Shown piece after piece: positions 25,161-31,852 of a DNA stretch of 64,000 bases. The position numbers were made by a program, and so were the translations under genes. Positions within the stretch are counted from its first letter, which is position 1. Each line of letters opens with the position of its first letter. Under the pieces are notes generated by a model. That model ran no database searches. It saw nothing but the letters and a program-made list of their open reading frames with translations, and was not told the DNA's origin. This DNA comes from an uncultured Acetobacteraceae bacterium (GTDB lineage Bacteria; Pseudomonadota; Alphaproteobacteria; Acetobacterales; Acetobacteraceae): the NCBI GenBank assembly GCA_903895595.1, contig CAITUP010000031.1, positions 1-64,000 on the forward strand, in the 5' to 3' direction.

Positions 25161-25451
25161 GAGTTCGAATGGGACGACAGGAAGGCCGCCAGGAACCTTC
25201 GCGTTCACGGGATAGCCTTCGAGACCGCGACGGAGGTGTTCGACGACGCCATGGCGTACGAATGGCAGGACGATACCCCAGGCACGGGGGAGGAGCGCTT
25301 TCTGACCCTCGGTATGTCGGGAAGCGGCGTGCTTCTGGTTGTCTCTACCCTGCGAGGCGAACGCATTCGCCTGATATCGGCCCGGCGGGCGGAACATTAT
25401 GAAAGAATGGCGTACCGCGATGGACACCGTAGCAAATTGGACCGCCCCTGA
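25161..25451 (+). CDS. brnT: BrnT family toxin (frame has no in-frame ATG/GTG/TTG at its expected N-terminus)
   Basis: Frame reads EFEWDDRKAARNLRVHGIAFETATEVFDDAMAYEWQDDTPGTGEERFLTLGMSGSGVLLVVSTLRGERIRLISARRAEHYERMAYRD; ORF track starts only at internal GTG 25236. Confidence 0.8.
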   Translation, partial: EFEWDDRKAARNLRVHGIAFETATEVFDDAMAYEWQDDTPGTGEERFLTLGMSGSGVLLVVSTLRGERIRLISARRAEHYERMAYRDGHRSKLDRP

Positions 25452-25707
25452 GGCAGACAACGACGGCGATGTTGCACCGCTGACGCCGGATCGTATCGCG
25501 CGTCTGAAGGAAACCCCGCGGATCAAGATCATCAGGCGTGCCCTGCGTCTGTCGCAGGAAGAATTCGCCGCGCGCTACCGCATTCCGGTCGGAACGCTCC
25601 GCGATTGGGAGCAAGGCCGTTACGAACCGGATGCCGCGGCGCGGGCGTATCTGCACGTCATCGCCCGCGAACCCGAAATGGTTCGGCGGGCTTTGGACGC
25701 GGGTTAG
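25399..25707 (+). CDS. HTH-type antitoxin/regulator paired with BrnT
   Basis: IKIIRRALRLSQEEFAARYRIPVGTLRDWEQGRYEPDAAARAYLHVIAREPEMVRRAL (XRE-like HTH); overlaps brnT 3' end. Confidence 0.88.
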   Translation: MKEWRTAMDTVANWTAPEADNDGDVAPLTPDRIARLKETPRIKIIRRALRLSQEEFAARYRIPVGTLRDWEQGRYEPDAAARAYLHVIAREPEMVRRALDAG

Positions 25708-28018: not shown

Positions 28019-29095
28019 ATGAGTCCCCGCCGAACCCGGCTGCTGCGCTTGGCCCTTCTGGTCGGCGTCCCATTGTTGGTCGCCGTTGGCGGCGTGATGG
28101 CTTGGCAGCGCGGCGGCCGCTACGTCAGCACCGAGAATGCGTACGTGAAGGCCGACATCGCCCAAATCGCCCCGGAGATTGCCGGTCGCGTGATCGAAGT
28201 GGCGGTGCGCGACCACGCCCGTGTCGTCGCGGGCAGCGTGCTGGTGCGGATCGATCCCGAACCCTACCGTTTGGCGTTCGCGAAGGCCTCCGCCGATCTG
28301 GATGTCGCCCGAGCACAGGTGGAAACTGCGCGCGCGACGTATCATGAGACGAAAAGCGAGTTGGGCGAGGTCGAAAACCAGGCGACCTATTTGGAACACC
28401 AGTTCCAGCGGCAACAGGCGTTGGCACAGCATGGGGTCGTCGCGGCCTCGGCGCTGGAAACCGCGCAGAAGGACGCGGTGGTTGCACGCGATCGTCTCAA
28501 CGTCGTCCGTCGGCGTCTCGACCGCGTGCTCGCCGCGCTCGGCGGCGATCCGGCGATTGCCACGGACCAACACCCGGCGGTCCGCGATAAGCTGGCGGAT
28601 CGGGATCGCACGGCGCTGGACCTCGCGCATACGGAACTGCGGGCGCCGCTGGACGGCATCGCGGTCAACGTGAAGCTGCAATTGGGCGAGCAGGTGAAGG
28701 CCGCCACGCCGCTATTCGTGATCGTCGCCGCGACGCGGCCTTGGGTGGAGGCCAACCTCAAGGAAACCGAACTGACGCATGTCGCGGTCGGCCAGAAGGC
28801 GAAAGTCGTGCTGGACATTTACCCCGACGAACCGTGGGAGGCCGAGGTCGCCAGCATCAGCCCCGCCGCCGGGTCGGAATTCGCGATTCTGCCGCCGCAG
28901 AATGCGTCCGGGAATTGGGTGAAGGTGGTGCAGCGGTTACCGGTGAAGCTGCGCTTGCTGCCGCACGATGGGGAAAAGGCTCTACGAGCGGGGATGACCG
29001 CGACGGTGGACATCGACACGCGGCGGGAGCGGCATTTGGGAGCGATTATGTCCGGATGGTTCGCCAAAGGAGAGGCGAAAGCAGCGGAGCGGTAA
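28019..29095 (+). CDS. HlyD/EmrA-family membrane fusion protein
   Basis: Single N-terminal TM; YVSTENAYVKADIAQIAPEIAGRVIEVAVRDHARVVAGSVLVRID; LDLAHTELRAPLDGIAVNVKLQLGEQV. Confidence 0.93.
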   Translation: MSPRRTRLLRLALLVGVPLLVAVGGVMAWQRGGRYVSTENAYVKADIAQIAPEIAGRVIEVAVRDHARVVAGSVLVRIDPEPYRLAFAKASADLDVARAQVETARATYHETKSELGEVENQATYLEHQFQRQQALAQHGVVAASALETAQKDAVVARDRLNVVRRRLDRVLAALGGDPAIATDQHPAVRDKLADRDRTALDLAHTELRAPLDGIAVNVKLQLGEQVKAATPLFVIVAATRPWVEANLKETELTHVAVGQKAKVVLDIYPDEPWEAEVASISPAAGSEFAILPPQNASGNWVKVVQRLPVKLRLLPHDGEKALRAGMTATVDIDTRRERHLGAIMSGWFAKGEAKAAER

Positions 29096-29108
29096 TTTCA
29101 ACTTTTAG

Positions 29109-29137
29109 TTGTATTTTTGGCGCCGCGAACTCAATAT
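29109..29137 (+). promoter_or_regulatory. candidate promoter of the TIR operon
   Basis: TTGTAT -N17- CAATAT upstream of GTG 29175. Confidence 0.3.
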
Positions 29138-29174
29138 TGCACGACTGCAACTCGGATGCGAACGTGCAAGGCCC

Positions 29175-29624
29175 GTGACCAAGGATACTCAGGTTTTTCT
29201 GTCCTACTCCAGCGAGGATATTTTCGAGGCCGATCTACTACAGTATGTGGCGGAAAACATGCTCGCCGACCTGAAGGTCACATTGTGGGCATATCACCGC
29301 GATCAGGCACGCGATCAGCGCTCAATCGCAGGAGGCGTGAGGGACATGGTTCGTCGATCGGCGGCGATGATATTTCTGGCATCGCGCTCGACGCTCGATG
29401 TAGGATCGACGCAATGGATGGAACTGGCCTATGCGGACGCTTTCGGATTGCCCATTTTTATCATCCTGCACCGAACTACGGTTCCCGAAATCAGGACCCG
29501 GCTCGAACATGTCCCCCCCTTGATGTTGGAAGCCAATTGCAACCCTTCCCATGAATGGCGACAAGTCGTGTCCGCGGTTCGATCGCGCCTGACGGTGCCG
29601 CGAGTCCGAAAGCGCAGGAGTTGA
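29175..29624 (+). CDS. stand-alone TIR-domain protein (TIR-1)
   Basis: TQVFLSYSSEDIFEADLL box 1; ARDQRSIAGGVRDMVRRSAAMIFLASRSTLDVGSTQWMELAYADAFGLPIFIILH with S..W.E catalytic-like motif. Upstream TTG 29109 also possible. Confidence 0.85.
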   Translation: MTKDTQVFLSYSSEDIFEADLLQYVAENMLADLKVTLWAYHRDQARDQRSIAGGVRDMVRRSAAMIFLASRSTLDVGSTQWMELAYADAFGLPIFIILHRTTVPEIRTRLEHVPPLMLEANCNPSHEWRQVVSAVRSRLTVPRVRKRRS

Positions 29625-29626
29625 CC

Positions 29627-29977
29627 ATGCCGACGTTCTTCTTGTCCTATGCCGACGCTGACCGCCCCCGGATCGAAAAGGTTATCGCTGAACTGCGCCA
29701 ACGTGGCGAGGTGACGAATGATGACGAGTTTACCGATTGGAACCGTATCCCCGAAACCGGGCAAGGCGCGCGCGCCGACCTGAAGCATGCAATCGCGGAG
29801 GCATCCAAGTTGGTCGTGCTATGGGGCGACGCTGCCGAACAATCCGCACATGTGAATTATGAGGCAGGGTTAGCGAGCGCCTTCGATAAACTGATCGTCT
29901 TCGTCCTGCCGCGAGGGAGGAAAACCCGTCTGCCGACGGAACTGTCGGATCGGCCGGTGATCCATCTGCGCGGTTGA
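29627..29977 (+). CDS. stand-alone TIR-domain protein (TIR-2)
   Basis: MPTFFLSYADADRPRIEKVIAELRQRGEV...ARADLKHAIAEASKLVVLWGDAAEQSAHVNYEAGLASAFDKLIVFVLP; GCAGGAG Shine-Dalgarno; 2-nt gap from TIR-1. Confidence 0.82.
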   Translation: MPTFFLSYADADRPRIEKVIAELRQRGEVTNDDEFTDWNRIPETGQGARADLKHAIAEASKLVVLWGDAAEQSAHVNYEAGLASAFDKLIVFVLPRGRKTRLPTELSDRPVIHLRG

Positions 29978-29980
29978 GCC

Positions 29981-30865
29981 TCACCGCTCCCGCAGCTTCG
30001 GATCCAGCGCATCGCGCAACGCATCGCCGAACAGATTGATCCCCAGCACCGCCAGCATGATCGCCACGCCCGGGAAAATCGCGATCCACGGCGCGGTGGA
30101 GGCATATTCCTCGGCCCCGCCTTGCAGCATCAGGCCCCAGGCCGGCACCGGCTCCTGCACGCCCAGGCCGAGGTAGGACAAAGATGCCTCGGCCAAGATC
30201 GCTTGGCCCACGAACGACGTCACCATGATCAGGAACGGGGCGACAACGTTCGGCACCATGTGCCGCAGGATAATCCGCGTGTGCCCGAACCCGCAGGCGC
30301 GGGCGGCATCGACATAAGGCATCGAGCGGATCGTCAGCGCCGAGGATCGCACCACGCGCGAACATCGCGGAATCAGTGGGATCGTGATCGCCAGGATCAC
30401 GTTGTGCACGCCCGGCCCGAAGATCGAAACCACCGCCAGCGCCATGATGATCAGCGGAAACGCCATGACGATATCGGACACGCGCTGGATGATCAGATCG
30501 GTCAGCCCGCCGAAATAGGCGCTCGCGACGCCGATCACCAATCCGGAAAACCCGCCGACGACCGCGGATGAAAGCCCCACGATCAACGCCGTGCGGGCGC
30601 CGTAGATGATGCGCGACATCAAATCGCGGCCGAATTGGTCGGTACCAAGCAAATGGGCGAACGACGGAGGCTCGGTCATAGCCGCGAAATCGTTGGCGGT
30701 AGGGTTGTAGGGCGCGATCCATTCGGCGGTGAAACCGGTGACGGCCATGATAATGACCAGGATCAGGCCGAACGTGCCCAAGGGTTGGCGCTTGCAGAAG
30801 CGCAGCGTCGATTGCCAGAACGACCGTTGCGGCAGGGGGGCGTCGTCGATGACGGTGGCGGACAT
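29981..30865 (-). CDS. ABC transporter permease (DppC/OppC type)
   Basis: LGTDQFGRDLMSRIIYGARTALIVGLSSAVVGGFSGLVIGVASAYFGG; ARACGFGHTRIILRHMVPNVVAPFLIM. Confidence 0.93.
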   Translation of the reverse strand: MSATVIDDAPLPQRSFWQSTLRFCKRQPLGTFGLILVIIMAVTGFTAEWIAPYNPTANDFAAMTEPPSFAHLLGTDQFGRDLMSRIIYGARTALIVGLSSAVVGGFSGLVIGVASAYFGGLTDLIIQRVSDIVMAFPLIIMALAVVSIFGPGVHNVILAITIPLIPRCSRVVRSSALTIRSMPYVDAARACGFGHTRIILRHMVPNVVAPFLIMVTSFVGQAILAEASLSYLGLGVQEPVPAWGLMLQGGAEEYASTAPWIAIFPGVAIMLAVLGINLFGDALRDALDPKLRER

Positions 30866-30880
30866 GCTTTGCTTCTCCGC

Positions 30881-31852
30881 TCAGGCGAAACGAATGCGCG
30901 GATCGAGCCAGCCGTACAGCAGGTCGACCACGAGGTTGGTGAACACAAAAATCGCGACGGTCAGCATCACCAGTGCCTGCGTCAGCGTGTAATCCTGGTT
31001 CTGCACCGCCTGCACGAACAGCCGCCCGACGCCGTTGAGGTTGAACACCTGTTCGGTGACGACCAGCCCGCCGATCAGGAAGGCGAACTCGATCCCGATC
31101 AGCGTCACGACCGGCAGCAGCGCGTTTTTCAGCGCGTGGCGGTTGATGATGATCTTGTTGATCAGGCCTTTGGCGCGGGCCGTGCGGATGTAATCCTCGC
31201 GCATGACTTCCAGCATCGCCGACCGGGTCATGCGCATGCTGACGGCAGCGTAACGGTAGCCGACGGTGATGGCGGGCAGGATGGCCATTTCCAGATTGCG
31301 GATCGGGTCTTTCCAGATCGGTACGTAATCGATCGGTGGCATCCAGGGCGTGCCGGTGGCCCAGCCGGTGATATCCAGCACCAGCAGCACCGACACGATG
31401 CCCAACCAGAAGGATGGCGTCGCGATGCCGCCGATGGCGAAGATTCGCACGAACACGTCGATCCAGGTGTTCTGCTTCAGTGCCGAAATCGCGCCCAGCG
31501 GGATGGCGATGCTGACGGCGACGCTTGTGGCCAGCAGCGCGATTTCCAGCGAAATTGGCAAGCGCGCCAGAATTTCGGTGGACACCGGCTTACCCGACCA
31601 CATCGACGTGCCGAAATCGAACCGGCAGATGCCCCAGATGAAATCGAGGAATTGCACGATCATCGGCCGGTCCACCCCGATCTCGGCATGGCAGGCGATC
31701 AGCGCTTTCGGGTCGAACGACGCGCCGCCGCCGCCCAGGCGCACGAGGCAGATGTCCCCGGGAATCAGCCGCATCAGCAGGAACACCAGCGCCGCCGCGC
31801 CGAACAGCGTCGGGATCGTCAGCAGAACCCGTTTGATAATGTATTGGTACAT
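30881..31852 (-). CDS. ABC transporter permease (DppB/OppB type)
   Basis: MYQYIIKRVLLTIPTLFGAAALVFLLMRLIPGD; DYIRTARAKGLINKIIINRHALKNALLPVVTLIGIEFAFLIGGLVVTEQVF. Confidence 0.93.
   Translation of the reverse strand: MYQYIIKRVLLTIPTLFGAAALVFLLMRLIPGDICLVRLGGGGASFDPKALIACHAEIGVDRPMIVQFLDFIWGICRFDFGTSMWSGKPVSTEILARLPISLEIALLATSVAVSIAIPLGAISALKQNTWIDVFVRIFAIGGIATPSFWLGIVSVLLVLDITGWATGTPWMPPIDYVPIWKDPIRNLEMAILPAITVGYRYAAVSMRMTRSAMLEVMREDYIRTARAKGLINKIIINRHALKNALLPVVTLIGIEFAFLIGGLVVTEQVFNLNGVGRLFVQAVQNQDYTLTQALVMLTVAIFVFTNLVVDLLYGWLDPRIRFA

Follow-up and report, generated by a model that had tools for sequence, protein, structure and literature searches.

A tandem pair of small TIR-domain proteins, inserted as a compact cassette in an Acetobacteraceae genome and conserved in order across phyla, is a candidate NAD+-consuming immune system

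Most described bacterial TIR systems couple the TIR domain with a sensing domain or with an effector encoded by a gene of its own. In the genome of an uncultured Acetobacteraceae bacterium (a 5.46-Mb draft), two adjacent genes, TIR-1 and TIR-2, encode TIR-fold proteins that consist of little beyond the TIR domain itself, and they lie in a cassette precisely inserted between a gene for an EmrA/HlyD-type adaptor (hlyD) and a gene for a DppC/OppC-type permease (dppC). Our tentative reading, to which we give somewhat less than an even chance, is that they form a self-contained and horizontally mobile system, in which a phage-triggered TIR:TIR heteromer would consume NAD+ with no dedicated effector.

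The locus is on contig C31, the first 64,000 nucleotides of which were analysed (the window). Its features, in positions of the window, are:

28019..29095, + strand: EmrA/HlyD-type periplasmic adaptor gene, left flank, intact
29086..29093, + strand: left arm of an 8-bp inverted repeat, GGAGCGGT, in the flanking gene end (pair I7)
29096..29980, + strand: inserted cassette of 885 bp, TIR pair plus leader, supported by blastn/tblastn, junction comparison and GC content
29175..29624, + strand: TIR-1, GTG start, TGA at 29622-29624, 149 aa, with a conserved C-terminal extension
29421..29423, + strand: codon of Glu83 of TIR-1 (QWMELAY), putative catalytic Glu
29614..29620, + strand: GCAGGAG, Shine-Dalgarno-like sequence for TIR-2, within the 3′ end of TIR-1
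29627..29977, + strand: TIR-2, ATG start, 116 aa, stand-alone TIR
29861..29863, + strand: codon of Glu79 of TIR-2 (S.WVNYE motif; AHVNYE in the window), putative catalytic Glu
29981..30865, - strand: DppC/OppC-type permease gene, right flank, intact and convergent
29983..29990, + strand: right arm of the 8-bp inverted repeat, ACCGCTCC, in the flanking gene end (pair I7)

An initial annotation, made from the letters of the sequence, had described two small ORFs of 149 and 116 aa separated by 2 nt, the second with its own Shine-Dalgarno sequence, lying between an HlyD gene upstream and a convergent Dpp/Opp permease gene downstream; the coordinates, the GCAGGAG, the quoted protein motifs and both neighbours were all verified. 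An alternative start of TIR-1 at an upstream TTG (29109) would give a protein of 171 aa. The neighbours of the pair in the window are the EmrA/HlyD, EmrB and DppC genes, and no sigma-70 promoter passed in a scan of 28950-30100. Elsewhere in the window, an ORF of 102 aa (25399-25707, + strand) encodes an XRE/HigA-like, antitoxin-like helix-turn-helix protein.

How did the pair come to lie between hlyD and dppC? Four genomes of the same genus (G008, G002, G028 and G010; loci L044-L047) have the hlyD-dppC junction without the cassette: orthologues of hlyD (83-87% identity) and of the convergent dppC (89-91%) adjoin there directly or with at most a few tens of bases between them. In this comparison the left edge of the insertion falls at 29096, the first base past hlyD. 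The GC content of the insert (56.8%) is lower than that of every 885-bp segment of the 64 kb taken in 100-bp steps, and GC3 is 0.63 and 0.68 in the TIR genes versus 0.80-0.85 in hlyD, dppC and emrB. The composition already remarked on in the initial annotation is thus confirmed, and the horizontal acquisition suggested there agrees with both the empty sites and the foreign composition; gain in the window is a simpler reading than loss in four relatives. Only one repeat spans the cassette, the 8-bp inverted repeat, which consists of the two flanking gene ends with the cassette between its arms; it recurs in the empty site L044, where its arms lie near each other and it looks like a shared terminator. 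A transposon origin is not supported, as the cassette ends show no target-site duplication and the only spanning repeat is made of host gene ends that are also found at the empty L044. IMG/VR viral contigs, a plasmid collection and a phage collection gave no match to TIR-1, and therefore no vehicle of the cassette has been identified.

A TIR-1 profile built from the proteins of the window and of G013, a genome of the same genus, was used to search 85,462 species genomes. The scan required an exact QWMELAY or FEA[DG]LLQY, so that more divergent pairs were missed and the conservation of the TIR-1 motifs is partly built in. It returned 16 loci in about seven phyla, several of them on short contigs of metagenome-assembled genomes. 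The loci belong to Acetobacteraceae (the same pair as in G013), Thauera, Piscinibacter, Ideonella, Accumulibacter, two other betaproteobacteria and two Methylococcaceae, and further to Chlorobium, Latescibacterota, Binatia, Methylomirabilota, Solibacteraceae, Planctomycetaceae and one further bacterium. In 15 of the 16 loci TIR-2 comes directly after TIR-1, with the order of the two unchanged, so the conservation of the pair outside this genome, which had been put forward as a check on its significance, is borne out; in L022 and L027 the contig ends within TIR-2, and in L026 TIR-2 is shortened. At L018 the second gene (L018:8422-9273) is a diverged TIR-2-like gene with a C-terminal extension (hhalign E 3e-5 for the part matching TIR-2). 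The TIR-1/TIR-2 junction ranges from -11 to +14 nt, with an overlap in 12 of 16 pairs (window counted, L018 left out), and such tight or overlapping junctions are as expected for a coupled complex. The occurrence of the pair is sparse: it is present in one of the 32 other genomes of the genus and in none of a class sample (385 other genomes) or a phylum sample (398). A single-protein search of genome contigs with TIR-2 gave no relative, and TIR-1 was used in its place.

TIR-2 of the window matches Pfam TIR_2 with 38 bits (gathering cut-off 28), ThsB_TIR with 23.5 bits (cut-off 21.2) and the PADLOC ThsB profile at 3e-7, the last of which TIR-1 matches weakly. TIR-1 alone stays under the gathering cut-off of TIR_2 (20.1 bits, E 1e-3). 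At the level of families, TIR_2 is matched by 17/17 TIR-1 members (best 9e-8) and 16/16 TIR-2 members, and ThsB_TIR by 16/16 TIR-2 and 9/17 TIR-1 members; both proteins also carry the TIR box F.SY at the N-terminus. A PDB sequence search with TIR-1, as a single sequence or as a profile, yielded nothing useful. AlphaFold2 gave confident models of both (TIR-1, pLDDT 90 and pTM 0.85; TIR-2, pLDDT 84 and pTM 0.77), and Foldseek, a check that had been proposed at the outset, matched the former to the TIR domains of SPARTA and SARM1 and the latter to those of SPARTA and MyD88, along with structures of the nucleoside deoxyribosyltransferase (NDT)/DNPH1 type. The TIR fold first read from the ORFs is in this way supported by the profile of TIR-2, the family profile of TIR-1 and the predicted structures.

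Do the two proteins retain the residues of a TIR NADase? The catalytic-position Glu ascribed to each in the initial annotation is indeed there: Glu83 of TIR-1 is conserved in 17/17 members, a count biased by QWMELAY being itself a scan pattern, and Glu79 of TIR-2, which had no part in the scan, is conserved in 15/15 readable aligned members. Because the scan demanded QWMELAY or one other motif, the invariance of QWMELAY in TIR-1 is excluded as evidence. In the window, TIR-2 has His just before VNYE, where the other members have Trp or Phe. As for the box 1 aromatics of TIR-1, F8 is found in 16/17 members and F or Y at position 5 in all. The residues invariant in all TIR-1 members are W38, D43, Q44, E83, H99, C122 and W128, and those kept in TIR-2 are S7, D12, S73 and E79. 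The sequence features of a catalytic TIR NADase, namely the putative catalytic Glu and a box 1 aromatic, are present. The L018 second gene has Thr at the position of the catalytic Glu, which makes it a natural test of the need for catalysis by TIR-2.

The two partners do not evolve alike. Among 13 complete pairs, the mean pairwise identity is 49% for TIR-1 (scan motifs excluded) versus 34% for TIR-2, and TIR-1 is the more similar in 78/78 comparisons, a difference that may be inflated somewhat by the choice of loci through TIR-1 similarity. The distance matrices of the two are correlated (Mantel r 0.72; 0.46, p 0.002, without one near-duplicate), so the two genes travel together, under different constraint.

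An outline of the process that we tentatively propose is as follows: TIR-1 and TIR-2 would form a TIR:TIR heteromer, the head-to-tail assembly of which would build composite active sites; upon an infection signal the complex would split NAD+, and the cell would be stopped with no need for a dedicated downstream effector. The strongly constrained TIR-1 is more likely to be the enzymatic core and the faster-evolving TIR-2 the sensor or activating subunit, an assignment drawn from evolutionary rates only. The earlier suggestion of a sensing TIR with an enzymatic TIR, or of a heteromer, is consistent with genes that are almost always coupled and evolve at unequal rates, and with the ThsB1/ThsB2 precedent discussed below. 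The proposal is favoured by the ordered pair across phyla, the Glu kept in both families, the empty sites and foreign composition, and the defence neighbours at several loci; it is weakened by the window locus not being beside known defence genes, by the score of TIR-1 alone under the Pfam cut-off, by the match of the models to NDT/DNPH1 structures as well, by the SLATT gene adjacent in three relatives and by the L018 second gene without the Glu.

In Staphylococcus aureus Thoeris, ThsB1 recognises the capsid of the phage and then brings in ThsB2, the catalytic partner, whose Glu is required (PMC12578639). This pair is the closest precedent, as two TIR proteins are encoded in one operon of the type I ThsA/ThsB1/ThsB2 system and TIR-2 matches ThsB_TIR. 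Unlike it, the present pair consists of two single-domain TIRs of about 120-150 aa, of which TIR-1 is under the Pfam cut-off, and has no adjacent ThsA: no ThsA effector (SIR2-STALD, TM-macro or caspase-like) was found adjoining the pair in the window, and thus it is not Thoeris as defined. SpbK of Bacillus subtilis is a TIR NADase and direct effector that forms composite active sites through head-to-tail contact (PMC12847820); likewise, no effector is adjacent at the window locus, although SpbK is one larger protein rather than two small TIRs. SPARTA TIR domains (TIR-APAZ/short Ago) rank near the top of the structural matches for TIR-1 as well as for TIR-2, whereas the pair has neither an APAZ domain nor an Argonaute neighbour; an identity as SPARTA was rejected, both proteins being little beyond the TIR fold. 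The plant RPS4/RRS1 heterodimer also pairs two different TIRs (4c6t is among the Foldseek matches of TIR-1), but there the TIRs are domains of large NLR receptors. The pair is not listed as a unit in the defence profile library used, and a literature search, mostly outside subscription papers, found no description of a TIR-1/TIR-2 TIR-only pair.

The surroundings of related pairs bear on the proposal and on its main rival, second-messenger signalling to an effector elsewhere. Known defence genes adjoin or lie near several of them. In L016 (Thauera) the pair has Drt8 (E 1e-159) on its upstream side and is immediately followed by a methyl-directed restriction enzyme gene; L017 has an McrB-like gene, L023 has HEC-05 together with a dCTPase-type deaminase, and L018 has PDC-S60. 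A third, ThsB-like TIR is just downstream of the pair in L030 (Ideonella). L024 and L029 share a set composed of TIR-1, TIR-2, a SLATT_3+SLATT_1 protein, TGT, an Ogg-type HhH protein, QueC and a ThsB-like TIR, and in L028 an NDT-like gene, a ThsB-like TIR and a SLATT protein are just upstream of the pair. A SLATT membrane-effector-like gene therefore adjoins the pair in L024, L028 and L029, in at least two gene contexts (domains scanned in L024, and assigned by homology in L028 and L029), which suggests a signalling role there. No third gene is common to all loci within 6 kb, and no known defence genes adjoin the window pair; the initial remark that the pair has no adjacent partner is right for the window locus and does not extend to these three relatives. 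According to this rival, the pair would make an ADP-ribose-derived messenger for an effector encoded elsewhere, or in some relatives for the SLATT membrane protein beside it, as Thoeris ThsB halves without ThsA would. The ThsB_TIR matches in both families agree with it. Nevertheless, neither the window nor the majority of the loci have an effector beside the pair, SLATT_1 and STALD gave no match in the window genome (where the positive controls were silent for both families), and in L024 and L029 the SLATT gene could be part of the TGT/QueC cluster next to it. We regard such signalling as unlikely, if well worth weighing.

That cluster, TGT, Ogg-type HhH glycosylase, QueC and ThsB-like TIR, is conserved in itself (L024:9895-12698, L029:2612-5427) and looks like a deazaguanine-linked defence cluster. 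In L027 an ORF of 1843 aa, which resembles a hydrolase joined to a CHAT-protease-like protein and has no PADLOC match, is located directly upstream of the TIR pair (L027:2436-7967).

Two small overlapping genes of cassette size, spread horizontally and scattered in occurrence, also recall a toxin-antitoxin-like pair, in which one TIR would be a toxic NADase and the other a non-catalytic TIR restraining it until infection; a purely neutralising partner would not need the catalytic-position Glu kept in both families, and we consider this improbable. Less probable again is that the proteins are DNPH1/NDT-like N-glycosidases or deoxyribosyltransferases acting on nucleotides or nucleosides instead of NAD+. 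TIR and NDT folds are related, and thus the fold alone leaves the substrate unsettled: DNPH1 is the best Foldseek match of TIR-2 (TM 0.71), nucleoside deoxyribosyltransferases rank high for TIR-1, and weak matches to the Nuc_deoxyrib_tr profile occur in 3/17 TIR-1 and 10/16 TIR-2 members (window TIR-1, 14.6 bits versus a cut-off of 28.8; window TIR-2, none among the matches listed). On the other hand, the sequence profiles favour TIR, every member of both families matching TIR_2; both N-termini have the TIR box, and the structural matches to TIR domains of SPARTA, MyD88 and SARM1 are as good or almost as good. That the genes are non-immune or decaying foreign DNA without present function, as their rare and scattered occurrence might hint, is least probable of all, given two intact frames with nearly all family invariant residues and genes kept together, with conserved residues, across phyla.

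The window genome (G000) has a rich set of TIR proteins, with 15 TIR_2 matches in all; at one end of the size range are stand-alone TIRs of about 130 aa, at the other open frames of about 890 aa. Among its other loci is a second tandem pair of small TIRs, TIRa and TIRb, on contig C159 (about 30800-31650; L074:3827-4646, - strand), inside a urease operon between putative ureA and ureB, where the first gene overlaps ureA by 4 nt. A related pair is found on contig C182 of the Methylococcaceae genome G783 (L073:2536-3380), which also holds a TIR-1/TIR-2 pair. TIRa and TIRb are families of their own, 34% and 31% identical from one locus to the other, and match the TIR-1 profile only weakly; a search of 399 genomes for this second type found a tandem pair in the own genome only.

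With slightly more reserve than for the mechanism itself, the pair may be the smallest TIR immune system described: a cassette of less than 1 kb, distributed over about seven phyla, in which two single-domain TIRs, lacking any sensor domain or separate effector, would together sense phage and consume NAD+ via hetero-composite active sites. A conserved TIR-only pair would isolate how TIR:TIR contact alone yields both sensing and catalysis, a question common to Thoeris, SARM1 and the TIR pairs of plants.
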